Notes under the pieces: model-generated | What the model saw: the letters and a program-made list of their open reading frames with translations, nothing else | Told to the model about the DNA's origin: nothing | Database searches by the model: none | Assembly (NCBI GenBank): GCA_937868485.1 | Contig: CALMML010000343.1 | Span: forward strand, 1-40,171 | DNA: 40,171 nucleotides | Direction of reading: 5' to 3' | Origin: an uncultured Myxococcales bacterium | GTDB taxonomy: Bacteria > Myxococcota_A > Polyangia > Palsa-1104 > JAEUJZ01 | In this document: positions 1,604-22,393 of the stretch, piece by piece | Position numbering within the stretch: position 1 is the stretch's first letter | Layout: the number at the start of each line of letters is the position of its first letter | Translations under genes and position numbers: made by a program

Positions 1604-2890
1604 ATGAACACTCGTTTTCTTTCTGTGTGGGTGATGATTGCGGGGGCGCTCGGAACGGCAACAGCCGCAGCACCTACGAGCCCTGAAGCCAAGCCTCCAG
1701 CGACGGTGGCTCCTGCTGTGACCAAGCCCGCGAAGCCAGCTCCCAGCAAAGAGGTGATGCAGAAGTACCTACAGGCACTTACGCAGGGACGGACAGCGGA
1801 TGGAAAGGGACAGCTCCAGGAGGCCCGACGCGCCTTTGAGGAAGCGGTTCGTCTTCTTCCTGAAGGTGCAGCCGCGCAGTCGGAGCTGGGATGGCTTGCC
1901 TACCGTCAACAGGATCTGGAGCTTGCAGAGCGGGCAACGCGTACGGCGATCTCGGCGAGCAGCAAGCCCAGCCTGCGGGCGGCCTCGCTATACAACCTGG
2001 GAAAGATCCTTGTGGCGAGGGGAAAAAAGCCCGACGCCATCGCCGCGTTTCTTGCGTCCTGGGACATTGGACAGAGTCCTGCGGCACTGACGGAGCTGAG
2101 GGCGCTCGATCCCCAGGCTGCGCAGACGGCTTGGCCGAGGGTTACTCCCTTCGATGGACCGCTGAAGCTTGCGGAAGGGGGCGACCAGGGTCCGATGATT
2201 GCCGCGTGTCGAGAGCAGCTCTTCTTGGCTGTCAGCGCACAAGATCCGATGGAGCAGATGACGAATCGAGCAGGGATCGATGCGCTGAGCGTCGAGCGGC
2301 TGCACTGCCAGAAGCATGCGAGCGATCCATCGGGCGGAGCCTTCCCGGACGTCATGGTCCTGTCTGCGCGGTTTGAAGAAAATCACTACGAGCTGAACAC
2401 GATTGCAGTCTGGGTGAAGACAGCCGAGGGCTGGCAGTACAGCGTGCTCGATGCCTCGGAGAATCGAAAGTGGAAGGGAGACACCAGCACCGTCGAAAAA
2501 GTAAGCAAGATTGGGAGTGTGCTGGAGATCCGCAAGAGCGTGTCGCGCCGCGATGAGGTTGAGGTCGCAATCTATTCCAAGGGCGGTCGACAAGGCGGTC
2601 AGGAGTCCCCCACTTCGATCGTCGAGACCGACCGTACGCTGTACTACGTGGGATTTGGACCGAGCAGGAAGCCCAGTCTGACTGCGGGGATTCGCGCCTC
2701 GAATTCCCTGTCCTTGGAGCGTTCAGGTTCCGTTCGGAGCGCTGAAAAGAGCTATCCGATCACCCTCAGCCCGACGGGAATCCTGCAAGTGGGCGAGCCT
2801 CGCATCACGCGCAACAAGCTGCCAGAAAATGACTTCACCGGCAGAGAACTTCAGGTTCCCGTCGGTTCCTTTCCACTGAAGTTTCCCTAA
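1604..2890 (+). CDS. Exported TPR-repeat protein
   Basis: This encodes 428 residues starting at ATG 1604. That start gives a clean signal peptide (hydrophobic residues 5-20, then ATAAA and a Pro/Ala/Lys-rich linker to about residue 48). An AAGGAG directly abuts the ATG, closer than usual for a ribosome binding site, so the start is probable rather than certain. Residues about 50-170 form roughly three TPR helical pairs (for example QEARRAFEEAVRLLP and ASLYNLGKILVARGKKPDAI), normally a protein-protein interaction scaffold. The remaining ~250 residues look like a beta-rich domain with no family I recognise. The 3' end overlaps the convergent kinase remnant by 56 bp. It is likely periplasmic or on the surface. 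Confidence 0.75.
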   Translation: MNTRFLSVWVMIAGALGTATAAAPTSPEAKPPATVAPAVTKPAKPAPSKEVMQKYLQALTQGRTADGKGQLQEARRAFEEAVRLLPEGAAAQSELGWLAYRQQDLELAERATRTAISASSKPSLRAASLYNLGKILVARGKKPDAIAAFLASWDIGQSPAALTELRALDPQAAQTAWPRVTPFDGPLKLAEGGDQGPMIAACREQLFLAVSAQDPMEQMTNRAGIDALSVERLHCQKHASDPSGGAFPDVMVLSARFEENHYELNTIAVWVKTAEGWQYSVLDASENRKWKGDTSTVEKVSKIGSVLEIRKSVSRRDEVEVAIYSKGGRQGGQESPTSIVETDRTLYYVGFGPSRKPSLTAGIRASNSLSLERSGSVRSAEKSYPITLSPTGILQVGEPRITRNKLPENDFTGRELQVPVGSFPLKFP

Positions 2891-3527
2891 CGTTCTCACT
2901 CGGGCTGCGGACGTGTGACGGCCATTTCTCGACGAATCCGAGCTTGTCTGGCTTCAGGTCTCTGTGGACGATCCCGTGGTCGTGGACGGCTTGTAGGCCG
3001 GTGGCAATCTGCTGCGCAATGCGACAGGCTCGCAGCGGCTCCATCGGACCTTCTTCAATCGCTTTGGACAGCGTCGGTCCGACAAGAAGCTCCATCACCA
3101 GATACGAACGTCCGTCGGACAGAAGACCGAAGTCCGCGATGTACACAGTGTTTGGATGATGCACGAGCGACGCCATCTTGGCTTCTTCCAAAAACCGTCG
3201 CTGCGCAAGCGGATCTTGCGGCTGAAGCAGGATCTTGACCGCGACCGGCGTATCCAGGTGGACGTGCTTGGCTTTGTAGACGACGCCCATGCCACCTTGC
3301 GACAGCCGTGACTCGATGAGGTAGCGCTCGGCCAGCACGGCACCGACGACCGGGTCGGCATCTTCTTCTTGCGGGGGCGGGTAGCTGGGCGCGGTACGGT
3401 CCAGATCTTCTTCGGTAATCTGCGGCGCGGACGGAGAGCTACAGTGGTGCGCCTCGGTCACCGCAAACTGCAAGCCGCAGCGCGCACAGCGCTTGGTTAG
3501 TGATGTCCCGAGCCTTGGAGCAACCAC
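2835..3527 (-). pseudogene. Truncated Ser/Thr protein kinase (N-lobe plus catalytic loop only)
   Basis: The product starts with a short zinc-finger-like segment (CARC, then HHC about 10 residues later) and an acidic/Pro linker, followed by a Hanks-type kinase domain. Visible elements are the Gly-rich loop (SQGGMGVVYK), the ATP-binding Lys (AVKIL), the helix-C Glu (FLEEAKMASL), the hinge (LVMELL) and the catalytic loop HRDLKPDK. Homology then stops at about position 2943. The last 35 residues are unlike any kinase, and the Asn of the usual KPxN, the DFG motif, activation segment and C-lobe are all missing. I see no continuation in another frame, because the downstream DNA is the 3' end of the convergent TPR gene. 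The frame opens at TTG 3542, but GTG 3527, preceded by GGGGGA, is the better start. It is probably a non-catalytic remnant. Confidence 0.65.
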
Positions 3528-3549
3528 GAAACCGTCCCCCAAGCGGCAG

Positions 3550-3555
3550 ATTATA
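3550..3555 (-). promoter_or_regulatory. Possible -10 box (TATAAT) for the kinase gene
   Basis: On the minus strand there is a perfect TATAAT about 23 bp upstream of the likely GTG start of the kinase gene. No convincing -35 hexamer sits 16-18 bp further upstream, so this is a suggestion from sequence match only. Confidence 0.3.
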
Positions 3556-3784
3556 CATCAGCGATAGCTCTCGGGATTCCAGGCGGCGCAGTCTATCGGC
3601 ATGATTGGCGAAATGGTCGAGCCAGCCGAGGACTGATCCGGTGTTGGTCTGCTGCGGACGCGCTGAGGCATGGTGCTTCACGGGCCCACATGGAACCTGT
3701 GCCGGCTCCAGAAATGCGACTCAGATTGCCCAAATCCACAGGCTGTGCGGTGGTATGGTCCCCTCCTTCAGCCGGAGGTACTTC

Positions 3785-5974
3785 ATGAGCCAGCTTCGTG
3801 ATGGTCGTGTGAGAGTCTCTCGACGTGTGGGACGCCCGACGCGGTGGTCTCCGTGGCTAGTGTGGGGAGCGATCGCCTGCTCGGGTCTTGGTGGCTGCGC
3901 GGCGATCCGCGAGGTGGACGACAGCGATGACACCGTCGACACCGTCGATCCGCCAAGCGATCCCGTGGTTCGCGAAAACAGCCTCGGGTGTCGCGGTCGC
4001 GAGTGTTCAGCGGCGGTGGCGTGCGGCACCGGACAGCGCTGCCTGGAAGGTGTCTGCGTCGCAGCCGGTGAGCCCTGCCAAGACGACAGCACCTGCCAAG
4101 ACGACTCGCGCTGCTACAAAGGCTCGTGCTTGCCGTGGGATGCGTGCAAAAAGCTTGGCAGCTTCGATCCCGAGTGCAAAGGCGTCGCGTTCACCCCCGA
4201 AGAGTTCAAGTCCCCGGTCATCGCGTGTAAGCTCACTGGCTTTCAGACGCTGTCGGTGCCGGTCGTCGCCGATCTGGATCATGATGGAAAGCCCGAGGTC
4301 CTGACGGTCGCGCACGGTGTCGGCATCGTCGTGATGAGCGGTCAAGACTGTCGCGAGCTATGGCGCAAGAGCCTGAACCTGCAGGCCAGCAACCAAGGCA
4401 ACCTGGCTGTCGCAGATCTCGACGCGGATGGCTTTGGCGAGATCGTCGCGGTCGATTCGGCCAATCGCGTCATCGTGCTCGACTACAAAGGCAACTTGCT
4501 CGCTACGTCACCGACGCCAACGCAGGAATCCAACAGCAACGGTCAGCTGTGGAGCGCGCCCGCCATCGTCGATGTCGATGGAACCGCACCGCCCGAGATC
4601 GTCGCTGGAGCCCAGGTTTCGCGCTTTGTTCGTGGCGCTCCGTCGCGCATTGAAGTGCTGTGGACCAAGCCAAACCGCGCCGAGTCGCTCGGGTCGCTGC
4701 CGATCGCGGCTGACCTCGACGGCGATGGCCGTCCCGAGATCATCTCGAATGACAAGGTCTATGACGGTGTCACTGGCGCGGACAAGACCCCGCCTGCGCT
4801 GTCGACGAAGCCCTTTTATCCTGCCGTCGCTGACTTCAACCTGGATGGAAAGCCCGATCTGCTGCTGGTGATGGCGCAGTCGGGCAGCCAGATGGTCAGC
4901 ATCTACGACTACGCCAACAAAAAGACCATCTTCGGTCCGTATCGCGTCGCGGAAGGCGGCTGGGGCGGTCCATCGGTCATCGCTGACTTCGACGGAGACA
5001 AGGTTCCCGACTTTGGCCTGGCCTCTGCCACGCGCTACTACACCTATGCGCTCAAGTGCGCAAATACGCCCAAGCCCGCCGACTGCACCGGCACCGATCC
5101 TGGCGTTCTGTGGTCCAAGCAGACCCGCGATGCGTCGTCGGGTGGCACCGGATCGAGCGTGTTCGACTTCAACGGCGACGGTACCGCCGAGGTTGTCTAT
5201 CGCGACGAGTGCTGGCTGCGCGTCTACAACGGCAAGGACGGCAAGACGCTCTTTGCGGCCAACATCACCAGCAACACCTGCCTTGAGCTGCCAGTCATCG
5301 CCGACGTCGACAACGACGGACACGCCGACATCATTGTTTCGAGCGACTCGTACGGATCGTGCAGCAGCTCGGCCCAGCCGGAAGCCGATACGCGCACGCC
5401 GTGGACCGGGCTGACCCAAGGCATGTTCGTGCTGCGTGACCCGATGAACCGCTGGATGCCGTCGCGCCCGCTGTGGAACCAGCACAGCTATCACATCACC
5501 AACGTCAACGACGACCTGTCGATTCCCACCACCGAGTCAGACAACTGGCTCACCTACAACAACTACCGTCAGAACGTCCAGGGCGGCGGCGGCAGCGCGG
5601 GATCGCTTCCTGATCCGACCGGACGCACGGTGCCGGGACTCGACTCGACCGATTGCAGCAAGCTGTGGCGACTGCGCGGCGAGGTCTGCAACCGAGGCGC
5701 GAGCCCGATGACGATGCCAGTCTTTGCCAGCTTCTACGAAGGCCATCCCGACATGGGCGGCAAGCTGATCTGCACCGGCCAGACGACTGGAACCATCGCT
5801 CCGGGAAGCTGCGCGCCCGTGACCTGCGACTGGAACAGCCCGCCGGGCCGCGCCGTGGACCTATATCTGCGCGTCGGTGACAACGGCAAGGGAACGCGTC
5901 AGAGCGGTCAGTGCAAAGACAAAAACGACCTCGCGCATCAGCCTGCTGCGACCTGCTCGGGCATTCCTGGCTGA
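3785..5974 (+). CDS. FG-GAP/VCBS-repeat lipoprotein with Cys-rich domain
   Basis: This encodes 729 residues. ATG 3785 is supported by GGAGG at 3774-3778; the frame is open further upstream, but without a signal peptide. An Arg-rich n-region leads to a hydrophobic stretch and lipobox GLGGC (Cys38). Residues about 60-135 form a Cys-rich module with repeated CxxDSxC and CxxGxC patterns. From about residue 150 to 590 there are roughly eight FG-GAP/VCBS-type repeats, each with a calcium-loop motif such as DLDHDG, DLDADG, DLDGDG, DFNLDG, DFNGDG or DVDNDG, predicted to close into a beta-propeller. The C-terminal ~130 residues, with several Cys, look like a separate beta-domain. FG-GAP propellers usually bind ligands or other proteins at the cell surface. 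tmcA follows after only 22 bp in the best reading. Confidence 0.85.
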   Translation: MSQLRDGRVRVSRRVGRPTRWSPWLVWGAIACSGLGGCAAIREVDDSDDTVDTVDPPSDPVVRENSLGCRGRECSAAVACGTGQRCLEGVCVAAGEPCQDDSTCQDDSRCYKGSCLPWDACKKLGSFDPECKGVAFTPEEFKSPVIACKLTGFQTLSVPVVADLDHDGKPEVLTVAHGVGIVVMSGQDCRELWRKSLNLQASNQGNLAVADLDADGFGEIVAVDSANRVIVLDYKGNLLATSPTPTQESNSNGQLWSAPAIVDVDGTAPPEIVAGAQVSRFVRGAPSRIEVLWTKPNRAESLGSLPIAADLDGDGRPEIISNDKVYDGVTGADKTPPALSTKPFYPAVADFNLDGKPDLLLVMAQSGSQMVSIYDYANKKTIFGPYRVAEGGWGGPSVIADFDGDKVPDFGLASATRYYTYALKCANTPKPADCTGTDPGVLWSKQTRDASSGGTGSSVFDFNGDGTAEVVYRDECWLRVYNGKDGKTLFAANITSNTCLELPVIADVDNDGHADIIVSSDSYGSCSSSAQPEADTRTPWTGLTQGMFVLRDPMNRWMPSRPLWNQHSYHITNVNDDLSIPTTESDNWLTYNNYRQNVQGGGGSAGSLPDPTGRTVPGLDSTDCSKLWRLRGEVCNRGASPMTMPVFASFYEGHPDMGGKLICTGQTTGTIAPGSCAPVTCDWNSPPGRAVDLYLRVGDNGKGTRQSGQCKDKNDLAHQPAATCSGIPG

Positions 5975-5996
5975 TCCTGGCTGCGTCCTGGCGCTT

Positions 5997-8072
5997 GTGA
6001 ACGATCCCCGTCATCGCTTCTGCATCGTCCTTCGCGGTAGCCCAGCCGAGACGCAGGCTCTGGCGCTGCCGCTGCTCGCGCGCATTCCTTCGTCAGATGT
6101 GCTGTGGATTGGCGATGCGCCGCTTTCTGCCGTGCAGTCGTCGCCCACGCAGGTTCGGCGGCGGCTGGGTCAGGCCTTTTCGGCGGTGGTGCTCGATCTT
6201 CACGATGGGCTGTCGGCGGACGTGCTGGGTCAGTGTGCCGGGCTGGTCTTTGGTGGAGGTCGCCTGATCTTGCGCCTTCCTCCCGAGGGTGTGGTGCCGC
6301 TGACAAGCCAGGCCGAGCTGGCCGTGTTGCCGTTTTCGATCGACGACGTGGGACAGCGCTTTTTTCTGCGCGTTGCGCGCATGCTGGCGCAAAGCTCGGC
6401 CTGTGTGCCCGCTGCGGTCTTTGATGCGCCCGATCGCCGTGTGACAGGAGATGAAGAACAGGCCCTCGTGGTCGAGCAGCTGGCAGCGGGTCTGGCTGCT
6501 CCGGTTCCGTCGCTGTGGACGCTGGTGGCCGATCGCGGTCGCGGCAAGTCGAGCGCGCTGGGGCTGGCCCTTCGGATGGTGCTGACCTCGGGTTCGGTGC
6601 GCATCGCGGTGTCTTCTGACAGTCCAGCAGCGGCCCAAGAGATCTTTCGCTTTGCGACGGGAAACCCGCAGCCTCCGACGGATGGACCGCTTCGCTTTGT
6701 CGATCCGCGCGCGCTGGCCACCTGCGAACAAGCCTTTGATGTGATTGTGATCGATGAAGCCGCGCAGCTTCCGGTGCCGCTGCTCGTCGCCATCACGCAT
6801 CGTCATCCGCATGCGCGCTTGGCCTTTGCGACCACCGGACGCGGCTACGAAGGCACGGGCCGAGGCTTTGTCCTGCGCTTTTTGGCGTGGGCTGCGCGCG
6901 AAGGCAGGCCGCTTCAGCAGCTTTCCCTGCGACGACCGATTCGCTGGGATCCTGGCGATCCGCTGGAGCACTTTGTCGATCAAGCCCTGGCCATCGACGC
7001 CGAGCCTGCACCGATCGAAGCGCTGCGCCTCGGCTCGCTTGACGACGATGCACAGCTTGGTGAGCCGCCCGTGCATCGACTGCTCGACCGGGATGCGCTG
7101 GCCTTCGACGAGCCGCTGCTGCGCGACTTCTTTGGCTTGCTGGTTCACGCGCACTATCGAACGACTCCGAGCGATCTGCACCGCATGCTCGACGCGCCGA
7201 ACCTGGATCTGCATGCGCTGCTGGTGCGCGGTCGTGTAGTCGCTGCGTCGGTGGTTGCGCGTGAAGGCAGTCTTTCCGATCCGGTCTGCGTCGCGCTGTC
7301 CCAAGGTCGTGGTCGCATTCGAGGCCACGCGCTGCCGGACACGCTGATGTGTCACGCGGGCTACCCGGATGCGGGGCGGCTGTCGATGGTGCGCAGTGTG
7401 CGAGTCGCGGTTCATCCGTCGCTGCGTCGTCGAGGTCTGGCTGCGCTGCTGGTTGAGCACGTTCACCGCAGCTATCCCGACGCCGATCTGTTCGGTACGC
7501 TGTTTGGTGCGACGGCAGAGCTGCTTCAGTTCCGTCGTCAGCTCGGCTATGAGCTGGTGCGCGTCGGCGCGTCGCGTGGCAGTCGTACCGGCGAGCCAGC
7601 GGCGGTGATGATTCGTCCGGTGTCTTCGCAAGCCAAGGCGCTGTGTGCGTCGCTGCGACAGGATCTGGCGCACAACCTGTCGCTTCAGCTCGCGCTGCTC
7701 GCATCCGATGGCGAGGTCTGCTTGGACGGCGCGCTTCGATCGTCGCTGCTGGCTCACTTGCCGTCACCTGTACCGCTGTCGTCGGCGTCGCGTCAGCGCT
7801 TGATAACGCGCTATCTAACGGGTCCGCAGCCGTTTGACGCGCTGGCGCAAGTGCTGACCGATTATGTGACGCAGCACCAAGCCCAGCTGGCCCAGCTGGG
7901 CCATCGCGAACAGTGCTTGCTGCGGGCGCGCGTGCTGCTACGGCTGCCGTGGCCGCGCGTCTGTGCGCAGGCTGGGTATCCGTCCGTTCCGGCGGCGATG
8001 CGAGCGCTCCGACCGGCGCTGCGAGCGCTGCAGCTCGTCGTGGACGGTCCGCTGCCGCAGGACATGGGATAA
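5997..8072 (+). CDS. tmcA: tRNA(Met) cytidine acetyltransferase TmcA
   Basis: This enzyme forms N4-acetylcytidine at wobble C34 of elongator tRNA-Met, using acetyl-CoA and ATP. All the expected parts are present in order: an N-terminal Rossmann-like domain, an RNA-helicase-like ATPase with Walker A (DRGRGKSS, about residues 179-186) and Walker B (VIVIDEAAQLP, acids near 253-254), the signature GYEGTGRGFVLRF, the segment LRRPIRWDPGDPLE, HYRTTPSDLHRMLDAP, and a GNAT domain with the acetyl-CoA loop VAVHPSLRRRGLAALLVE. A C-terminal tRNA-binding tail follows. With GTG 5997 the product is 691 residues, close to the ~670 of E. coli TmcA. The frame is open back to GTG 5877, but that extension lies inside the upstream gene. 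No Shine-Dalgarno supports either start, so coupling to the FG-GAP gene is possible. Confidence 0.9.
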   Translation: MNDPRHRFCIVLRGSPAETQALALPLLARIPSSDVLWIGDAPLSAVQSSPTQVRRRLGQAFSAVVLDLHDGLSADVLGQCAGLVFGGGRLILRLPPEGVVPLTSQAELAVLPFSIDDVGQRFFLRVARMLAQSSACVPAAVFDAPDRRVTGDEEQALVVEQLAAGLAAPVPSLWTLVADRGRGKSSALGLALRMVLTSGSVRIAVSSDSPAAAQEIFRFATGNPQPPTDGPLRFVDPRALATCEQAFDVIVIDEAAQLPVPLLVAITHRHPHARLAFATTGRGYEGTGRGFVLRFLAWAAREGRPLQQLSLRRPIRWDPGDPLEHFVDQALAIDAEPAPIEALRLGSLDDDAQLGEPPVHRLLDRDALAFDEPLLRDFFGLLVHAHYRTTPSDLHRMLDAPNLDLHALLVRGRVVAASVVAREGSLSDPVCVALSQGRGRIRGHALPDTLMCHAGYPDAGRLSMVRSVRVAVHPSLRRRGLAALLVEHVHRSYPDADLFGTLFGATAELLQFRRQLGYELVRVGASRGSRTGEPAAVMIRPVSSQAKALCASLRQDLAHNLSLQLALLASDGEVCLDGALRSSLLAHLPSPVPLSSASRQRLITRYLTGPQPFDALAQVLTDYVTQHQAQLAQLGHREQCLLRARVLLRLPWPRVCAQAGYPSVPAAMRALRPALRALQLVVDGPLPQDMG

Positions 8073-13165: not shown

Positions 13166-13332
13166 AAAGGTTTACACGCCCCACGCCCGACCCCAGGGAA
13201 CCTTTGACGCGCTCACCGCACAGGTGATGCGGCCCAGTGCTTGGTTCTCGACGCTTACTCATTTCACATATAGCAAGGCGATCTGACAAGCGGGGCCGTC
13301 TTTTCCGACAGCGCGGCGCAGATTTTGCCAAA

Positions 13333-15474
13333 ATGAGCAGGATGCGCGGACATCGCCACAGCGCTCGGATCGCGGACAGGCTCGCCTTGGGCGTGGGTCT
13401 GTGCTGCGTCGGCATGCTGGCGCTGCTGCCGACGGATAGGCCGCAGGCTCAGTCGATCCTGCTCTCGCACGGGGTGACGGTCGGGGACCGCGCGGCGATG
13501 CTGCGGAGCTTTCGACAGCCGCCGCTCGACTGGACGCGACCGGACTTCGACGACACGCAGTGGCAGCGCTACGTGGTGAGCGCGAGCCCGCAGGTGATGA
13601 AAGATCCGTCGGGTGCGGTGGTGATGGTTCCGTCGCTGTGGACGCCGGGCGATGCGGGACTCGGGGCGCAAGGGCCGCTCGCGGGGGATTCGGCGGGGCA
13701 GGGCGCAGCCGCCGCAATGTCGACGGATGAGCCGACCTCGCCGAGCAGTGAGCCGGACGTTCCGCTGCGCGATGGACTCATTGACGCTGGCCTTCTGTCG
13801 TCGCCTCCCGTGGCTGCCGTCGAGCTGGCTGGTGCTGCACTTCGCGCGGGTCTTGCAGCGACGATGCCGGGCGCGCTGCTGCTGGCGTCGCCGGTTCAGG
13901 CCAAGCGCTCGGGTCGGTCCGCGCGTGAGCTATCGGAGCCGCTGCTTCCCGACTGTGGCGGAAGCTTGTTTATCCGTCGGAAGTTTGACTTTTCAGGCAT
14001 TCCCGGTGGCAGTGGCAGCGCCGGGACGCTGTTGTTGCGGGTCCGTTACAGCGACGGAGTGGTCGCACACATCAACGGGACAGAGGTGCTGCGCAGTCGT
14101 CTGCCGGAGCCTCCACCGGGCGATCTTCCGCTCTTTGCCAGCGATCGGGGCCCGTCGGACCCGGAGCGCTATTATCTACCCGTTTCGTCGCTGCCGCTGC
14201 GCGGTCATGGCAACGTCTTGGCGATCGAGGTGCATCCGAGGACGCCGCTGCGCTGTCCGCAGGTGGAAGCAGAGCTGCTGGCGCTGACGGGGCCTCGGCT
14301 CTTGCGCGGGCCGTACATCGAGCGACTGACGGAGACGACGCTGGATGTGACGGTCGAGACGGAGCTACCGTCGCGCGTGCTGATTCGCTACGGCAAAGGC
14401 GAAAAGGTGCAGCATCGCGATCGGGAAGTGGAAAGCAGCGGAGAGCCTCAGACGGTGCATCGCCTGCATGTGGGTCCGCTGAAGCCGGGGACGCTGCATC
14501 ACTATCAAGTGGTACTGCTTGGCGACGGTCAGAAGCGGAGCGATCTGCCGCTTCAGACGTTTCACACGCCACCTGTGGCAGGCATGCCGCTGAAGATCGT
14601 GGCGTACGGCGACAGCCGATCGGGGCATCCGGTTCACGCGCAGGTGATTTCGTCGATCTTGGCCGAAGATCCCGATTTGGTGCTGCATACCGGCGATCTG
14701 GTCGAGCGTGGCACCGAGGAAGGCGACTGGGATCGCTTCTTTTCGCTGACGGCTCCACTGCTGGCGCGGACGGCGGTTTATATCTCGCCGGGAAACCATG
14801 ACTACGCGATCCGCAAACAAGGATCGCTGCGGCTGTATTCGCTCTTTCAGACGATGTTTCCGCCACAGCTGCCGACGCCGTCGGGGAGTGTCTTTTCCGC
14901 AAGTCGGGTGCTGGCCGATACGGTGGCTGCGCCCGCGCCGCTTGGAAACCTCAGCGAGGCTGCGCGCGGCTATTACAGCGTCGATGTCTCGGGCGTTCAC
15001 TTGGTCAGCATCGACTCGAACCAGGCGGGCAAAGCCGATCAGCATCGCTGGCTGGAAGCGGATCTGACGCGAGCCGATCAGCAGGTTCCGAAGCCGCGCG
15101 CGATCATCGCGTGGATGCACGAAGGTCCGTTTTCGTCGGGCTGGCACGGCGATTATCCGACGGCGATCAAGCACTTGGTGCCGATTTTGCAAAAGCACGG
15201 GACGACGCTGCTCATCTCGGGACACGATCACGACTACGAGCGCGGACAGCGGCAAGGGCTCGACTACATTGTGACCGGCGGCGGTGGCGCAGAGCTGCGG
15301 CCTCTCAAGTGCGATCCGAGACGTCGGCGCTGCAAGAACCAGCCGCTGTATTTTGCCAACGAGCATCACTACCTGCGTCTGGAAGTGCTGCCGACTGTGC
15401 TGCGTGTCTGCCCGCGTCGTCCCGACGGAACAGCCCTGGAAGAATGTCAGGTGCTGCGGCTGCGCAGACCGTAA
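13333..15474 (+). CDS. Secreted purple-acid-phosphatase-like metallophosphoesterase
   Basis: This encodes 713 residues from ATG 13333 (ATG 13342 is an alternative). A signal peptide or membrane anchor is visible near residues 17-34. The N-terminal ~310 residues include a galactose-binding-like beta-domain (RVRYSDGVVAHINGTEVL, GNVLAIEVHP). A fibronectin-like domain of the purple-acid-phosphatase type follows (LLRGPYIERLTETTLDV to GPLKPGTLHHYQVVL). The catalytic domain carries the full metal-ligand set: YGDSRSG, HTGDLVERG, SPGNHDY, WMHEGPF and SGHDHDYERG, followed by VTGGGGAEL. This is a phosphomonoesterase or phosphodiesterase acting outside the cytoplasm on an unknown substrate. The next gene also begins with a phosphoesterase domain, but of a different, cytoplasmic type. 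Confidence 0.85.
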   Translation: MSRMRGHRHSARIADRLALGVGLCCVGMLALLPTDRPQAQSILLSHGVTVGDRAAMLRSFRQPPLDWTRPDFDDTQWQRYVVSASPQVMKDPSGAVVMVPSLWTPGDAGLGAQGPLAGDSAGQGAAAAMSTDEPTSPSSEPDVPLRDGLIDAGLLSSPPVAAVELAGAALRAGLAATMPGALLLASPVQAKRSGRSARELSEPLLPDCGGSLFIRRKFDFSGIPGGSGSAGTLLLRVRYSDGVVAHINGTEVLRSRLPEPPPGDLPLFASDRGPSDPERYYLPVSSLPLRGHGNVLAIEVHPRTPLRCPQVEAELLALTGPRLLRGPYIERLTETTLDVTVETELPSRVLIRYGKGEKVQHRDREVESSGEPQTVHRLHVGPLKPGTLHHYQVVLLGDGQKRSDLPLQTFHTPPVAGMPLKIVAYGDSRSGHPVHAQVISSILAEDPDLVLHTGDLVERGTEEGDWDRFFSLTAPLLARTAVYISPGNHDYAIRKQGSLRLYSLFQTMFPPQLPTPSGSVFSASRVLADTVAAPAPLGNLSEAARGYYSVDVSGVHLVSIDSNQAGKADQHRWLEADLTRADQQVPKPRAIIAWMHEGPFSSGWHGDYPTAIKHLVPILQKHGTTLLISGHDHDYERGQRQGLDYIVTGGGGAELRPLKCDPRRRRCKNQPLYFANEHHYLRLEVLPTVLRVCPRRPDGTALEECQVLRLRRP

Positions 15475-15641: not shown

Positions 15642-17864
15642 ATGGGGAAAGACCGACGGATTCGCTGGCTGCACCTGTCCGACTTTCATCAGGGCGTCAA
15701 TCGTCTCGACCAGAAAACAGAGGTTCCCGAGCTGCTGCGGCGACTCCAGTCGGACATCGAGATCCTGCATCGCACAGGCGAGATCGATCTGGTGCTGTTT
15801 ACCGGCGATCTGACGCAAAGTGGCGAAAGTAGGCAGTTCGAGGCGCTCGGGACGTTTCTCGATCAGCTTCTGACGAGGCTGCGCGAGCTGGGATCGGATC
15901 CGGTGCTGCTGGCGGTGCCGGGAAACCACGATCTGTCGCGGCCTGATGGCTCGGACTGGGCGGCGGTGGTGTTCGATGCGTGGGAAAAAAACCAGAAGGT
16001 GCGAGACGCGTTCTGGGACAAAGAAGCCAAGAACCACGCGCAGTATCACAAGCCGATCTCGACGGCGTTTGCGAACTATCGAGCGTTTGCCAAGGCGTGG
16101 CTGAAGAAGCATCCGCTGCCGTCGTGGATCGAGGTGCGTTCGACGGGACTTTTGCCGGGTGACTTCGCCGCGACGATCGAAAAGAACGGCGCGAAGCTGA
16201 TGGTGGCGGGCCTAAACTCGGCGTTTTTGCAGCTTGGGGACGGCTATTACCGAGGTCGGCTGGAGCTTCATCCCAACCAGCTGAGCCAGGTGGCGGGACC
16301 GCGCTGGGAAGAGCTGCACGACGCGGCGCTGCTGTTGTCGCATCATCCGCCCGACTGGCTGAGCGAGCGCAGCCTTCAGAGTTATAAGTCGCTGCTGATT
16401 CAGCGAGAGCGGTTTGCGGCGCACTTGTACGGTCACATGCACGAGCCGCAGGTGTCTCAGCACAGCGAAGGCGGCGGCAGCGATCGGTTTCGCATCCAAG
16501 CTGCGTCGCTGTGGAGCCGTGATCGCTTCGGCAAAGACAGTCATGAAACGCGGCTGCATGGCTACAGCGTCGGGCAGATTGACCTCGACGACGGGCTGCT
16601 TCGGCTGTGGCCGCGTGAATACGTCGAAAAGTCAGACGGTGAGTGGCGTTTCGAGCCAGACATCCGTCGCTATTACCTGCAATCCGACGGACAGCTGCAG
16701 CGTCCCATTTCCGTGAAGCGACTGCGTACGCCGCCGGTGGTGGTGCAAGTACCGCCGCTGCCTCCGGCGATCGACAGTGGCTCGCGGGGATCGCCGTCGG
16801 ATCCGCTGCTGAAGGACTCTGATGTCGGGCTTCAGTCGGTGTCGCTCGAACACTACGTGCTGCGTGATCGACTGGAGCGACCGCTTCGGCGCTATCTGCT
16901 CGGGGAAACGCACAATCCGGTGGTGCTGTGGGGCCCGGCGTTTTGCGGGAAAAAGACGCTGCTGCGACGGGTGCTGTCCGATGTGCGCAGCGAAGAAGCG
17001 AAGCGTGGTCGCAAGCCGCTGGAAGTGATGCTCGACTTTGCGAACTTTCGGCTGGAGCAGCGCGAGCATCTCGACGGAGTGCTGCGTGGACTGGGGCTGC
17101 GGATTGCCCGCGCGGTGGCGCAGCGAACCGGCGAGCGCGACTACGCACACTGGGTAAAGACGCGCTTTGAGCAGCACGATCACATCGAGCGCCTGAACTG
17201 GCTGCTCGAGGAAGACATCTTTCCGCGTCTGCAAGCGGGGCTGTCGCTGGTTCTTTTGTCGGCAAACCTGCTGTTGTCGAGTCCTCTTGGGGCGGAGCTG
17301 TTTGGCATGCTGCGTCACTGGGCGGACTGTACGCAGCAGTCGCTGCACCTGTCGTCGGAAGGCGCGCCAAGCTGGCTGGCGCTGCGGCTGGTGACGGTGA
17401 TCTCGACGATGGAATCGCCGCAGGAAGTGGTTCACGGCTCGCAGTTTCTAAACCACGCAGAGCGCATCGACGTCGATGACTTTGGTCGCGACGAAGTGAT
17501 TCGCTTGATTCGCAGCTACGATCGGCTCCCGGGCGCAGAGATTGCCGCCGACGCGCTGATGCAAGTGGTGGGCGGACAGCCAAATCTTTTGCGACGGATT
17601 CTCGACGATGCCAGTCGAGGTGGCGTGCTGAACCTGGATCGGGAATACCTGACGAGGATTTGTCAGCATCACCTGGACTCGGTTCGGCAGTGGATTCGAC
17701 GAAGCGCAGAGCTGGACGACGCCGTGCAGCGGCTGCTTCGAGGGGGCGCGCTATCGGTGGCCGAGCGTCAGCGGCTTCAGAGCAGCGGGCTGATTCGCAA
17801 CACAGCGTCGGGGCTGCGTCTGCGCTATCCACTGTACGAAGACTATCTACGCGAGCAGCGGTAG
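15642..17864 (+). CDS. Calcineurin-like phosphoesterase fused to a degenerate AAA ATPase domain
   Basis: This encodes 740 residues with no signal peptide. Residues 1-~340 are a calcineurin-like metallophosphoesterase with all metal motifs: LSDFHQG (Asp14, His16), TGDLTQSG (Asp56), PGNHD (Asn95, His96), LSHHPPDW (His234/235) and YGHMHEP (His265, His267). A Pro-rich linker spans about 362-395. Residues about 400-690 resemble the ATPase domain of the next gene (AAA_35-like): the P-loop GPAFCGKKT (431-439) is kept, but the Walker B position reads LVLLSANLL instead of hydrophobics followed by Asp-Glu. A short winged-helix-like tail ends the protein. The next gene starts 7 bp after the stop, with its AGGAG overlapping the stop codon, so the two are translated together and probably act together. 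Confidence 0.85.
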   Translation: MGKDRRIRWLHLSDFHQGVNRLDQKTEVPELLRRLQSDIEILHRTGEIDLVLFTGDLTQSGESRQFEALGTFLDQLLTRLRELGSDPVLLAVPGNHDLSRPDGSDWAAVVFDAWEKNQKVRDAFWDKEAKNHAQYHKPISTAFANYRAFAKAWLKKHPLPSWIEVRSTGLLPGDFAATIEKNGAKLMVAGLNSAFLQLGDGYYRGRLELHPNQLSQVAGPRWEELHDAALLLSHHPPDWLSERSLQSYKSLLIQRERFAAHLYGHMHEPQVSQHSEGGGSDRFRIQAASLWSRDRFGKDSHETRLHGYSVGQIDLDDGLLRLWPREYVEKSDGEWRFEPDIRRYYLQSDGQLQRPISVKRLRTPPVVVQVPPLPPAIDSGSRGSPSDPLLKDSDVGLQSVSLEHYVLRDRLERPLRRYLLGETHNPVVLWGPAFCGKKTLLRRVLSDVRSEEAKRGRKPLEVMLDFANFRLEQREHLDGVLRGLGLRIARAVAQRTGERDYAHWVKTRFEQHDHIERLNWLLEEDIFPRLQAGLSLVLLSANLLLSSPLGAELFGMLRHWADCTQQSLHLSSEGAPSWLALRLVTVISTMESPQEVVHGSQFLNHAERIDVDDFGRDEVIRLIRSYDRLPGAEIAADALMQVVGGQPNLLRRILDDASRGGVLNLDREYLTRICQHHLDSVRQWIRRSAELDDAVQRLLRGGALSVAERQRLQSSGLIRNTASGLRLRYPLYEDYLREQR

Positions 17865-17870
17865 GAGCCC

Positions 17871-20783
17871 ATGGCGTCATCGGAAAACATGGCGAAGATG
17901 GCTCCGCTGCCAGCGCGGCGCTTTCATGCAGGTGGCGTGGTGCCGCTGGGACAGGCGTTCTACATCGAGCGCGATGCCGACCAGCGGTTGGTGAGTGAGC
18001 TGCTCCAGGGCCGGCTCTGTTACATTTTGGGCACACGGCAGATTGGCAAGTCGAGCCTGCGGGTTCGCGCCATCACCGAGCTTCGCCGTCAAGGTGCCAA
18101 GGCCGCGAGCCTGAACCTGCAAGGCTTTGGCTTTCCGCCCGAAGCGGAGTGGTATCGCGGGCTCATCCAGCGCGCCGCCAAAGAGCTAGAACTGCCGTTT
18201 TCCGCGTCGGAGTTCTTCGAGCGTCACGCCCACAGCGGTCCGGTTCATCAGTGGACCAGCTTCTTTCACGAGGTGGTGCTACCGAACATTGATGCGCCGG
18301 TGGTGATCTTCTTCGACGAGATCGACACGGTGCTCAGTCCCGACTTTCGCTTTTCGACCGATGCGTTTTTTGCGTCGCTGCGCAGCTTGTACGAAGAGGT
18401 TCGCGGCTCGTTTAGCCACAGGCCGCAGCTTACGTTTTGTCTGATTGGCGTCGCGACGCCCGAAGAGCTCATCAAAGATCCGGTTCGCTCGCCGTTTAAC
18501 CTGGACAACGAGCGGCTGGTGCTCGACGACTTTACGGCGCGTCAGGCCGAAGTGCTGCTGCCTGGTCTGTCGGTGCTGCCCGGTAGTGCGGAAGACTGGC
18601 TGGCGATGGTGATGTCGTGGACCGACGGGCATCCGTACATGACGCAGCGGCTGTGTCAGTATCTCGTCGATCATCCTCGGCCCATTCACGAGCTTCCGGG
18701 CGATGTGACGCGGGCAGCGGTGACGACGCTGTTTCTGTCGGGACACAAAGATCCGAACCTGAGCTTTGCCGAGGCGCAGTTTCAGCACATCAGCGATCAT
18801 CACGAGCGCCACAGCGTGGTGTCGCTGTACCGTCGGATTTACATCGGGGATCGCGTGCTGTATGAGCCGCAAGATCGCCTTCAGTCGCTGCTGCTTCTGT
18901 CGGGAATGGTCAAGCTGCGTCAGGTCGGCGATGAGCGACGGCTGGTGGCGCGAAACCGCATCTTCCGCGAGGTCTTCGGGGCCAAGTGGATTCAAGAGCG
19001 CGATCGCTCGACGCCGGACTGGCTGAGCGACAAGCTGTTTGCGTACTGGGGAAATCAGCGCAGCGCGGCGTTTGCTCTGTCGCGGATTGAGATTGAGCGT
19101 GCGCTCGACTCGATTCCGAAGAGCGGACAGTCGCTGTCGCCGGACTTGGCGGACTTCATCGGTCGCAGCCAGCACGTTCGCGACAAGCAAGAGCGACGGC
19201 AGCGAACCATCTTCGTGATGGCGGTGATTAGCCTTTTGTCGATTCTGCCGTTTGCGATTTATCAGACCTACCGTCGGATTCTCGACAAAAAGGACGCGGA
19301 CAGCAAAGCGGCGGTGCGAGAGTCGCAAGTGAAGCTGCTGCTCGAGTATCGGTCGTATGCGGAAAAGCAGATCGCGAAGCTGAACGAGCGGATCTCGTCG
19401 CTGGAAGAAGAAGTCGGGGATCTGTATGCGGAGCTGCGGTCGGCCAACCTCCAGCTGCGGTCCAAAGAGCGAGAGATCGCGCGGCTTGTGCAGCAGAAGA
19501 TCGAGCCCAATTCGCAGCTGACGGTGCTCCAGCGCAAAAAGCAGGACGTGCAGGTGCGGATCGAGCGGCGGACCAGCGACAAACAGACGATTGTTCTCGA
19601 TCGCGAAGAACACGAGCGGCTGCGTCGCAACATTGACGATCGACTGCGAGAGCTAGAGCCAGAGCCCGCACCGCTGCCGCCGCTGCCCAAAGAAGCGCAA
19701 GCGCTGCACGACGTGATTGCGAGCGTCGCGGGGAAAGTGGACTCGCTGTCGGTGGATGAGTCGATCAAGCTTCGGCGCGCGGTGATGGCGATGTCGAAAG
19801 CGGGGCCTCGGCTGCGGTTTCATCATGTCGCGGAGCCGGGCCTGGTTCACCTGCGGCTGTGTCCGTTTTCACGCAGCATGCCGGGGAAGCCGTTTTTGCT
19901 GGCTGCTTCGTCGATTGGTGTGTCGCTGTGGGATGGTGAAGGTCAGCCTCTTTCCACCGAGTTTGCGATTCCCGAAGGCGGCAAGGTTCGCGCGCTGGCG
20001 ACCAAGTATCGCTGTAGCCAGGTGCTGGTGTCGGTCGATGGCCGCGTGCTCAGCTTCAATGACCAAGGGCAGCTGATGAATCAGGTGCGCAGCGCGCAGC
20101 CGGTTCAGGCAATGACGGCGCTGGTGTCGCCCGATGATGATCCGCCGCAAGGGTTTCCGGTGGTGCTGGGCATTGGTCACTTCGCAGAGCTTCTGTACAT
20201 GCGACAGGGCGTCTATAAGCCGGGGGTTCGGCTGACTCACGTCGATGATGTGACGGCGCTGGACTTGTCGCAGAGCGGTCAGTGGGTTCTGTCGGGCGCG
20301 GGTCGGCGCGTGCTGCTGTGGCAGACGGTGAGCGGCGAGCGGCTGCGATCGCTTCATGAGCATCCCGCCAAGGTGCGAGCGGTGGCGCTGTCTCATGCCA
20401 GTGCGGATTCAGTCGCGGTGTCAGCGGCGGAAGATGGATCCGTGGCGCTGGTCAGCACTGCGACGGGAGAGACGCTGCATTCCCTGACGGGTCATACCGC
20501 TGCGGTGGTGTCGGCAGAGTTTTCCATCGACGGAAACTACATCGTGACGGCCAGTGCGGATCGCTCGGTGCGCGTGTGGTCGCGTCGCGATGGCAGCTTG
20601 GTCTACGGGCTGTTTGGGCTGTCGAAGGTTCCGCTGTCGGCGGAGCTTAGCGCCAACGGCAAGCAGCTCGTCGTGCTTCAGAGCGAAGGTGAAGCGCGGC
20701 TGTACCAAGTGGGCGACGAAGAGTTTGTCTCGGCAGGCTGCAAGCTGCTGCATCCGCTCATCAACACGCCCGGATGTAAGTAA
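17871..20783 (+). CDS. AAA ATPase with transmembrane segment, coiled coil and WD40 domain
   Basis: This encodes 970 residues from ATG 17871. Residues about 18-350 are an AAA_35-like NTPase: AFYIERDADQRL leads to Walker A LGTRQIGKSS (Lys60), then Walker B VVIFFDEID (Asp149, Glu150), LIGVATPEELI and WTDGHPYMTQRLCQ. A single transmembrane helix lies at about 446-465. Residues ~475-620 are a long coiled coil (KLNERISSLEEEVGDLYAEL). Residues ~650-960 form a WD40-type propeller, clearest near 874-915 (GHTAAVVSAEFSIDGNYIV, then SADRSVRVW). The C-terminus has two Cys. NTPases joined to WD40 sensors are known from signalling and conflict systems of multicellular bacteria. Here the likely role is a membrane-tethered sensor that works with the phosphoesterase encoded upstream, which is an inference from gene order and shared homology. 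Confidence 0.85.
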   Translation: MASSENMAKMAPLPARRFHAGGVVPLGQAFYIERDADQRLVSELLQGRLCYILGTRQIGKSSLRVRAITELRRQGAKAASLNLQGFGFPPEAEWYRGLIQRAAKELELPFSASEFFERHAHSGPVHQWTSFFHEVVLPNIDAPVVIFFDEIDTVLSPDFRFSTDAFFASLRSLYEEVRGSFSHRPQLTFCLIGVATPEELIKDPVRSPFNLDNERLVLDDFTARQAEVLLPGLSVLPGSAEDWLAMVMSWTDGHPYMTQRLCQYLVDHPRPIHELPGDVTRAAVTTLFLSGHKDPNLSFAEAQFQHISDHHERHSVVSLYRRIYIGDRVLYEPQDRLQSLLLLSGMVKLRQVGDERRLVARNRIFREVFGAKWIQERDRSTPDWLSDKLFAYWGNQRSAAFALSRIEIERALDSIPKSGQSLSPDLADFIGRSQHVRDKQERRQRTIFVMAVISLLSILPFAIYQTYRRILDKKDADSKAAVRESQVKLLLEYRSYAEKQIAKLNERISSLEEEVGDLYAELRSANLQLRSKEREIARLVQQKIEPNSQLTVLQRKKQDVQVRIERRTSDKQTIVLDREEHERLRRNIDDRLRELEPEPAPLPPLPKEAQALHDVIASVAGKVDSLSVDESIKLRRAVMAMSKAGPRLRFHHVAEPGLVHLRLCPFSRSMPGKPFLLAASSIGVSLWDGEGQPLSTEFAIPEGGKVRALATKYRCSQVLVSVDGRVLSFNDQGQLMNQVRSAQPVQAMTALVSPDDDPPQGFPVVLGIGHFAELLYMRQGVYKPGVRLTHVDDVTALDLSQSGQWVLSGAGRRVLLWQTVSGERLRSLHEHPAKVRAVALSHASADSVAVSAAEDGSVALVSTATGETLHSLTGHTAAVVSAEFSIDGNYIVTASADRSVRVWSRRDGSLVYGLFGLSKVPLSAELSANGKQLVVLQSEGEARLYQVGDEEFVSAGCKLLHPLINTPGCK

Positions 20784-20827
20784 GTTCGCGGCTCGCAGAC
20801 CCAAAAAGCGTGTTACGGGAGACTGCG

Positions 20828-22393
20828 ATGTCGATGCTGGAACAGCTACTGGTGACGCTCGATCGCAAGCGGCCGAAAGCGCCGGGTGCCTCGCGTCAGA
20901 ATCCGTTTCTTGAAGGCAACTTTGCGCCGGTGGGCTACGAAGCCGATACACCGACGCTGGAGCTGAAACAAGGTACGATCCCTTCGTCGCTGCGTGGTGC
21001 GCTGTATCGGATGAGCCCCGCGCCGCGCTTTTCGCCGCCCAATCAGAGCCTGTATCACTGGTTCGACGGCGACGGGATGATTGACGCGTTTTTCTTCGAA
21101 GACGGACGCGTTCATCACAAAAACCGCTGGGTGCGCACCGAAAAGCTGGTCATCGAAGAGCGCGCCGGGCGAGCGCTGTTTGGCGGGCTGCGGGATCTGG
21201 CGACCTCGACGGCGATTGAAGGACTGCTCGGGCTGGGCTTTTCTGCGACGGAGCTGCTCAAGCTCAAAGCGCTGGGGATGCTCGGACGGAAGCCGTCGCC
21301 GGATGTGATTGCGCGGATTGTGCGTGCGATGGATCGCAGCAACACCAGCATTCAGAAGCTGGCGGGACGGCTGCTCACGCTCGTCGAAGGCTCGGGCGCA
21401 CACGAAGTCGATCCCCGCACGCTGGAGACGCTGGGCCGCTTTGACTTCGGCGGGGCGATTGACCTCACCAAAGGCGGCATGCTCGCGCATCCCAAGGTCG
21501 ATCCTCAGACGGGCAGCATCTACACGATGGGCTACTTTGGCGACGCGGGCGGCTTTTGCTACTACGTGTTTGGCCGCGACGGAACGCTGCAAGTGAAGCG
21601 TGAGTTTGAAGCGCCCTATCCGGCGATGATGCACGACTTTAGCGTCACCAAGACGCGCGCGGTCTTCTATCACTTGCCGGCGGTGCTGCACCTGGAAGAT
21701 GTCACCGACCCGAACACGATTCGCTGGGAGCCCTTCCGAGGCAGCCGCATCGGGGTCGTCGATCGCGACAGTCCGAGTGCGCCGCTGCGGTTTTTCCCGG
21801 TGCCGCCGTGCTACGTGTTTCATCCGCTCAATGCATTTGACGACGGAGAATCGGTGGTGCTCGACGTGGTGAAGTACGCGCGACTGCCGCTGTTTGATCC
21901 GACTGAGCAGCAAGAGCCGGTGACGCAAGATGAATCGGTGGTGGGGAAGCTGACGCGGCTGCGGCTGGATCTGCGAACGGGCGAGCTGACCGAGACGCAG
22001 CTTGATGCGACCCTGTGTGAGTTTCCGGTCTGTGATCCGCGCTATGCGATGCGACCGTATCGCTATGGCTGGCTGGCGGCTCGCGTCGGGGAAACCTGCG
22101 GACGAGGTCAGTTTAACGCGCTGGGTTACGCCGATCTTCAGACGGGGACGGTGCGTCATCGCGTGCTCGGACGGTCCAGCTACGTGAGCGAAGTGCTGTT
22201 TGTGCCGCGTGGCCCCGGTGTACCGGAAGGGGACGGCTATCTGCTCGGGACGGTGTTTCACGCCGAGGCTGGTCAGTCGGACTTGGTGATCTGGGATGCG
22301 CAGCAGGTCGATGCGGAGCCGGTGGCGGTGCTTCAGACGCGGCAGCGTGTGCCGTTTGGCTTCCACGGAACGTGGGTGCCGAGCGATTCGTAG
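20828..22393 (+). CDS. Carotenoid cleavage oxygenase family protein
   Basis: This encodes 521 residues. ATG 20828 has GGGAG (20817-20821) at good spacing. It is a member of the RPE65/carotenoid oxygenase family, non-haem iron enzymes that cleave a C=C bond of carotenoids, apocarotenoids or stilbenes. The four iron-ligand histidines can be placed: AHPKVDP (His221), MMHDFSVT (His269), VFHPLNAFDDG (His332) and FHGTWVP (His513). LRGALYRMSPAPRF and HWFDGDGMIDAF are the expected N-terminal blade motifs. An insertion of about 60 residues with Leu-rich helices (about 115-180) sits near the region that forms the membrane-dipping patch and tunnel in relatives. The gene follows the AAA/WD40 gene by 44 bp and may be cotranscribed. 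No carotenoid biosynthesis gene is nearby, so the substrate is unknown. Confidence 0.9.
   Translation: MSMLEQLLVTLDRKRPKAPGASRQNPFLEGNFAPVGYEADTPTLELKQGTIPSSLRGALYRMSPAPRFSPPNQSLYHWFDGDGMIDAFFFEDGRVHHKNRWVRTEKLVIEERAGRALFGGLRDLATSTAIEGLLGLGFSATELLKLKALGMLGRKPSPDVIARIVRAMDRSNTSIQKLAGRLLTLVEGSGAHEVDPRTLETLGRFDFGGAIDLTKGGMLAHPKVDPQTGSIYTMGYFGDAGGFCYYVFGRDGTLQVKREFEAPYPAMMHDFSVTKTRAVFYHLPAVLHLEDVTDPNTIRWEPFRGSRIGVVDRDSPSAPLRFFPVPPCYVFHPLNAFDDGESVVLDVVKYARLPLFDPTEQQEPVTQDESVVGKLTRLRLDLRTGELTETQLDATLCEFPVCDPRYAMRPYRYGWLAARVGETCGRGQFNALGYADLQTGTVRHRVLGRSSYVSEVLFVPRGPGVPEGDGYLLGTVFHAEAGQSDLVIWDAQQVDAEPVAVLQTRQRVPFGFHGTWVPSDS

Follow-up and report, generated by a model that had tools for sequence, protein, structure and literature searches.

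A two-gene AAA_35 locus with phosphoesterase and WD40 modules in an uncultured Myxococcales bacterium: a candidate split STAND-type receptor

Gene organization and conservation of the locus

Two adjacent genes were analysed within a stretch of 40,171 nucleotides (hereafter, the window), and all window features mentioned below are on its forward strand. Gene 1 (15642..17864; 740 aa, ATG start) codes for a phosphoesterase followed by a degenerate AAA_35/STAND-type ATPase domain, and no transmembrane (TM) helix was found in a hydropathy scan of its protein; gene 2 (17871..20783; 970 aa, ATG start) codes for an AAA_35 ATPase domain, a TM helix, a coiled coil and a WD40 region. The Shine-Dalgarno (SD) sequence AGGAG of gene 2 (17863..17867) overlaps the stop codon TAG of gene 1 (17862-17864), as had been noticed in the original prediction, and because the ATG of gene 2 is located at 17871, the SD-ATG spacing is short (3 nt). 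That prediction had also read gene 1 as a complete calcineurin-like phosphoesterase fused to an AAA domain, and gene 2 as an intact AAA domain followed by a membrane helix, a coiled coil and WD40; both readings were confirmed, the former by PF00149, PF14516 and the presence of five metallophosphoesterase (MPP) motifs, and the latter by PF14516, Walker motifs, hydropathy, SMC-like matches and PF00400.

Two congeners have intact copies of both genes (gene 1 orthologues, 91% and 84%), and in them the pair sits 3' of the same upstream neighbour as in the window; the tested downstream genes also match in one of the two. The dN/dS values between the window and the congeners range by domain from 0.06 to 0.24, being 0.11-0.13 for gene 1, 0.06-0.14 for the ATPase of gene 2, 0.23-0.24 for its TM/coiled-coil part and 0.15-0.16 for its WD40 part. 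Judging from these sequence comparisons, the pair occupies a stable chromosomal locus in this genus, with conserved synteny and under purifying selection. The value for the degenerate ATPase of gene 1 indicates a constraint as strong as that on the phosphoesterase, which is compatible with a structural, partner-binding role.

The neighbour directly 5' of the pair is a gene for a secreted-type metallophosphatase (13237-15474), kept at this position in both congeners (86% and 73%), and its co-transcription with the pair is possible. We rejected this phosphatase as a part of the system because it belongs to a different MPP subfamily and has only a 52-aa motif match (E 0.002). Directly 3' of the pair lies a gene for an RPE65-family carotenoid oxygenase (20810-22393), syntenic in one congener. 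The window also carries a gene for a TmcA-like tRNA(Met) cytidine acetyltransferase (5877-8072) with NAT10/TmcA helicase and GNAT domains.

The phosphoesterase of gene 1

The MPP domain of gene 1 (aa 7-318; 15660..16595) was delimited on the basis of PF00149, the DS-8 and DS-9A profiles and its motifs. Pfam Metallophos (PF00149) matches aa 8-269 (E 1.2e-12), and the five metal/active-site motifs are intact (SDFHQG 13, TGDLTQ 54, VPGNHD 92, LSHHPP 232 and YGHMHE 263). The NCBIfam profile NF053861 (DS8_antiphage) matches aa 11-318 (E 1.9e-18) with 65.7 bits against a cut-off of 790, covering positions 1-272 of 994, i.e., the effector half only, and NF053862 (DS9_1) matches the MPP part only (E 4.7e-14). 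The nearest solved chains by sequence are Mre11/SbcD, and in a structure comparison the MPP model resembles the class III cNMP phosphodiesterase Rv0805.

In other Myxococcota, members of the same MPP family are fused to NACHT, nSTAND5, WD40-Roc GTPase, SLOG and TIR, and the window's own genome has another gene of this family fused to nSTAND1. Such fusions indicate that the MPP is a travelling effector of NTP-gated systems, and the view that the family supplies an effector common to STAND-type proteins is supported at the sequence level. Two single proteins composed of MPP, WD40 and a Roc/Ras GTPase (L052:7259-11689 and L053:4775-9790, the latter with an extra Metallophos domain) carry the same phosphoesterase on a GTPase chassis.

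The two ATPase domains

The AAA_35 domain of gene 1 (aa 404-737; 16851..17852; PF14516, E 2.3e-21) was assigned as a pseudo-ATPase by motif comparison and fold. Its Walker A is GPAFCGKK, without S/T, and its Walker B strand LSLVLLSANL is devoid of acidic residues. The AAA_35 domain of gene 2 (aa 22-268; 17934..18674; PF14516, E 1.4e-23) has an intact Walker A (GTRQIGKS, 18030-18053) and Walker B (FFDEID, 18300-18326). Throughout the relatives, the gene-2-type ATPase (AAA2) retains GK[ST] and DE, and the gene-1-type ATPase (AAA1) decays in the MPP branch: Walker A and B are retained in the gene 1 ATPase of most relatives, and most other MPP members have kept Walker A but lost the Walker B glutamate (LDRVD). 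A pseudoATPase in gene 1 had been part of the original prediction, and this holds for the window, where both motifs are degenerate, whereas full loss is limited to this genus among the relatives.

The model of the gene 2 ATPase (pLDDT 90.6) was matched by Foldseek to ORC/Cdc6, archaeal STAND-like ATPases, Avs3/Avs4 and Apaf-1, and that of the gene 1 ATPase, taken from a structural model of moderate quality (pLDDT 72, pTM 0.47), to ORC/Cdc6, Apaf-1, Dark and plant resistosomes; ORC1/2 is among the best matches of the two comparisons. Because the TM-scores are modest (about 0.3-0.6), these matches indicate the clade and not the family. On the basis of the models, both ATPases appear to have the ORC/Cdc6-clade AAA+ core, like ORC/STAND proteins.

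Membrane topology of gene 2

Gene 2 has a single predicted TM helix (about aa 446-464; 19206..19262; hydropathy 2.3), a coiled-coil stalk (about aa 480-610; 19308..19700) with SMC-like matches at aa 477-612 and JetC-like matches, and a WD40 propeller region (aa 641-970; 19791..20780; PF00400, E 8e-19), which a topology argument makes a predicted periplasmic sensor. A hydrophobic helix after the ATPase was found in 73 of 81 gene-2-type proteins; it is usually single and nearly always right behind the ATPase. The 15 residues on the N-side of the helix are more positive than those on the C-side in 61 proteins and less positive in 6 (means, +2.7 and +0.6). According to the positive-inside rule, the positively charged flank is the cytoplasmic side, and this charge bias therefore assigns the ATPase to the cytoplasmic side and the C-terminal part to the opposite side. 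Among the modules at this end in relatives, CHASE2, PEGA and Amidase_3 are extracytoplasmic and DUF2092 is annotated as periplasmic by Pfam, in agreement with an outside sensor. In the window's gene 2, positive residues flank the helix on both sides, and its topology therefore rests on its relatives. From these statistics on sequences, we consider with good confidence that the sensor lies outside the cytoplasm. The membrane tether of the WD40 sensor, which the original prediction had proposed, thus stands, and the propeller itself is probably located in the periplasm and not in the cytoplasm.

Pairing across bacteria

The search with gene 1 covered 379 genomes of the phylum and found full-length homologues (~35%) in other families, with a gene-2 homologue behind every one of them. 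In a further scan, which used aligned gene-2 ATPases as the query and a single genome for each species, we took the best 80 loci; these came from Myxococcota, Cyanobacteriota, Acidobacteriota, Chloroflexota, Verrucomicrobiota, Armatimonadota, Pseudomonadota and some others; AAA1 and AAA2 were assigned by profile HMMs of the two ATPase types. Among these best 80 loci, a gene-1-type gene lies directly upstream on the same strand for 63 of the 81 gene-2-type genes, and the other 18 include three at a contig edge, one with a broken gene 1, one divergent and one with gene 1 downstream. The adjacency was found in at least seven phyla, which agrees with the co-occurrence of the two genes that the original prediction had proposed to check and contradicts the rare adjacency that it had regarded as fatal. 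In a less selected survey of the phylum using Pfam AAA_35, a partner was present within 1.5 kb for 40 of 60 strong matches. In 11 further genomes, chosen for holding at least one AAA_35-type gene, this was the case for 30 of 51 AAA1 and 32 of 49 AAA2 genes among the matches listed. The proportion of AAA_35 genes without an adjacent partner is a third to 40% in these less selected surveys.

That genes 1 and 2 are independent and mere neighbours in this genus is very improbable: some AAA_35 genes of each type do stand alone, but the adjacency across phyla and the fixed order, with AAA1 located 5' of AAA2 in 29 of 30 pairs (11 further genomes, among the matches listed), argue against it, and chance neighbourhood is ruled out by the pairing survey. 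The two genes very probably work as one sensor-effector system.

Some cyanobacteria have around ten or more each of AAA1 and AAA2 genes. Pairs are also present on plasmids, including cyanobacterial plasmids; a single viral contig carries a relative, and a mobile or viral origin was rejected on this ground. The distance matrices of AAA1 and AAA2 are correlated (r = 0.957; 0.960 within TIR-type pairs), a value confounded by common ancestry that shared descent alone could give, and the neighbour nearest by AAA1 is also the nearest by AAA2 in only 29 of 62 loci. On the tree of joined ATPases, the window pair stands on a very long branch, and its mechanism could therefore have drifted.

Several loci deviate from the usual arrangement. 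Three gene-2-type AAA_35 genes of Sorangium (L075, L077 and L081) have no adjoining gene 1, and in So ce26 a gene-1-type domain occurs ~14 kb from one such gene on the opposite strand. A Chlorohelix plasmid (L145, 4983-11053) has the reversed order, gene 2 being followed by a kinase-AAA_35 gene. At L098:8322-12946, a gene for an OmpR-type wHTH joined to AAA1 is divergent from its gene-2 partner, an arrangement that might resemble a regulator of its own divergent promoter.

Exchange of modules at both ends

The termini of the two genes vary widely among relatives. Among 60 gene 1 N-termini, Pfam assigned TIR_2 in 37, CHAT in 15, Metallophos in 9, Pkinase in 6, BTAD in 4, Trans_reg_C and Trypsin_2 in 3 each, and XRE HTH and EAD7 in 1 each; CHAT precedes TIR in the examples read. 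WD40 was found in 45 of 69 gene 2 C-termini, and the other C-termini carry CHASE2 (once followed by a kinase), PEGA/carboxypeptidase-regulatory, DUF2092, TonB_C, TPR, PD40 or an MFS-type transporter. Both ends are exchanged in a pair on plasmid pNsp_e of Nostoc sp. ATCC 53789, which combines Trypsin-TIR-AAA_35 with AAA_35-WD40-Amidase_3. Two matches of gene 1 in the phylum have kept the ATPase and carry another N-terminus, TIR (L059/L094) or an XRE-type HTH (L063/L109). At the latter locus (2616-5668), which belongs to a congener, the XRE-type gene 1 is accompanied by a gene-2 ATPase fused to the start of an MFS/POT-like transporter at the contig end, and the pair is possibly a transporter-coupled transcription switch.

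When outputs were placed on the tree of joined ATPases, 9 changes were counted, compared with 19 for shuffled labels; at the level of sequence, the outputs are clustered on the tree and yet appear to have changed several times. Among the myxobacteria on this tree, outputs of MPP, HTH, trypsin and TIR type stand side by side, the exact placements being unsure because of long branches.

Proposed mechanism

From the domains, motifs, conserved pairing, module exchange and purifying selection described above, we infer a scheme of physical interaction, oligomerisation, activation, substrate, ligand and biological purpose, in which genes 1 and 2 form a split, transmembrane STAND-type receptor/effector pair; we favour this reading with moderate confidence. 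The protein of gene 2 would be anchored in the inner membrane; its active ORC/STAND-like ATPase would face the cytoplasm, and the coiled coil and WD40 would lie on the outer side, where they would sense a ligand or the envelope state and switch the ATPase. The protein of gene 1 would be soluble and cytoplasmic; it would dock on its gene 2 partner by means of the homologous, catalytically dead ATPase domain and contribute the metallophosphoesterase as the output enzyme. Ligand binding would cause ATP-dependent mixed oligomerisation of both ATPase domains and bring the phosphoesterase domains together, and the clustered enzyme, thereby switched on, may then hydrolyse a nucleotide substrate (a cyclic nucleotide, a dinucleotide or a nucleic acid). 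The original prediction had the sensor release the phosphoesterase; we have dropped this step, as nothing shows release and the MPP is part of the same polypeptide as its ATPase domain.

More generally, the pairs may represent a widespread, previously unnamed class of split STAND/NLR-like receptors, in which a membrane ATPase reads an extracytoplasmic sensor and signals to a paralogous ATPase with an interchangeable cytoplasmic output (a toxin, a second-messenger enzyme or a transcription factor), i.e., an NLR-type transmembrane two-component system; we put this forward tentatively.

Defence or signalling

An immune purpose of the pair is plausible, and defence and signalling are about evenly balanced. 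Defence or cell suicide has close to an even chance of being the purpose, and envelope/stress or kin signalling is a substantial possibility. A narrower and more doubtful reading is that the pair serves solely against phages by abortive infection, as a counterpart of DS-8/Avs on two chains, the phosphoesterase degrading an essential nucleotide or nucleic acid once infection is sensed. The homology of the MPP to DS-8 and DS-9A, both validated, and the fold kinship with Avs3/4 and Apaf-1 point in this direction, as do the TIR, trypsin, CHAT and EAD modules at the same position in relatives, the pairs on cyanobacterial plasmids and the further MPP-nSTAND1 gene in the same genome. The stable synteny and a dN/dS of about 0.1 in the genus are, however, unusual for an immune locus, a relative is known on only one viral contig, and a sensor in the periplasm and outputs that bind DNA are equally compatible with general signalling. 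A location near defence genes, which had been suggested as a check, was not found: no PADLOC defence system lies beside the pair within the window, where only isolated subtilase and GlgB-like matches occurred, and the reading as a defence island was rejected for this reason.

It is likewise possible, though doubtful, that the pair serves envelope, nutrient or kin signalling as a STAND-type analogue of one- or two-component systems, gene 2 sensing the periplasm and gene 1 tuning a second messenger, here by cyclic-nucleotide phosphodiesterase activity. This is consistent with OmpR-type wHTH, BTAD and XRE DNA-binding domains among the outputs of relatives, with CHASE2, PEGA and an MFS transporter among the gene-2 sensors, with the resemblance of the MPP model to Rv0805, and with a stable chromosomal locus under purifying selection. 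It is opposed by TIR as the commonest output, by the trypsin and CHAT outputs, and by the anti-phage function of the closest characterised MPP homologues; TIR in defence is usually an NAD-consuming toxin or a signal maker. The design of NTP-dependent conflict and signalling systems, recognized in the original prediction, is upheld by the swapped effector and sensor modules and the homology to anti-phage DS-8, but the transcription-factor outputs widen it to general signalling and not only conflict.

Comparison with known systems

Most of the characterised STAND/NLR-like receptors of bacteria consist of one chain and detect phage proteins within the cell. If such a receptor were split and had a transmembrane sensor half, as we favour for this pair, an NLR-type switch could monitor the envelope or the cell exterior, and its chassis would join conflict effectors (TIR, MPP and protease) with ordinary transcriptional outputs. 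The dozens of natural module swaps would be material for studying signal transmission by such ATPases. The gene pair appears to be a modular relative, so far without a name, of the immune receptors of bacteria.

A literature search for AAA_35, PF14516, DS8/DS9 and AAA-like combined with TIR and WD40 gave no description of the pair, nor do passages of Kaur et al. 2020 (PMC7159879) and PMC8195603 (eLife 2021), which describe related grammars (ternary systems, iSTAND, EACC1 and STAND-FGS). The pair belongs to the known STAND-type sensor-effector NTPases, and there is a real chance that it is undescribed as a transmembrane system. The passages of PMC8195603 cite the MNS clade (Npun2340/2341 family) from Leipe et al. 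2004 and mention this family only as the NTPase of single-chain STAND-FGS proteins, not as a two-protein transmembrane system. Its name points, as we infer, to two consecutively numbered Nostoc genes, and the ATPase of the AAA_35 pair may be of this family.

The MoxR-vWA ternary systems and iSTAND, as presented in passages of Kaur et al. 2020 (PMC7159879), share with the pair an inactive STAND protein, TIR or peptidase effectors at its N-terminus, PEGA and TM segments, and occurrence in multicellular bacteria; here, however, the second component is an active homologous ATPase. A MoxR-vWA ternary or EACC1 two-gene system was rejected because no such genes are present, the flanking ORFs coding for the secreted phosphatase and the RPE65 protein. 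DS-9 (MPP + HAD phosphatase, NF053862) also consists of two genes and has a homologous MPP, but its partner is an HAD phosphatase and it is without an ATPase.

The pair has the composition of a two-gene AAA_35 group, i.e., AAA1 with an N-terminal output followed by AAA2 with a TM helix and a C-terminal sensor. Like Avs and bacterial NACHT antiviral STAND proteins, it has an N-terminal effector, a central ORC/STAND-type ATPase, structurally matched to Avs3/Avs4, and a C-terminal repeat sensor; unlike these one-chain proteins, it has its effector and sensor divided between two chains, both of which contain an ATPase domain, and the sensor chain additionally possesses a membrane helix and sensor modules of extracytoplasmic types.

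The original prediction knew no named system with exactly this pairing, and none was found in the literature searched, but DS-8, a single MPP-NACHT protein in which mutation of either domain abolished phage defence (PMC13092281), is a characterised single-chain analogue. Gene 1 shares with DS-8 (NF053861; a DefensePredictor system) a homologous N-terminal MPP with intact motifs fused to a STAND-class ATPase, but does not match it at full length above the cut-off with NACHT. DS-8 has its NACHT on one chain, whereas here a degenerate AAA_35 domain is accompanied by a separate membrane-anchored AAA_35-WD40 protein, and the pair places a DS-8-type phosphoesterase under a different sensor.
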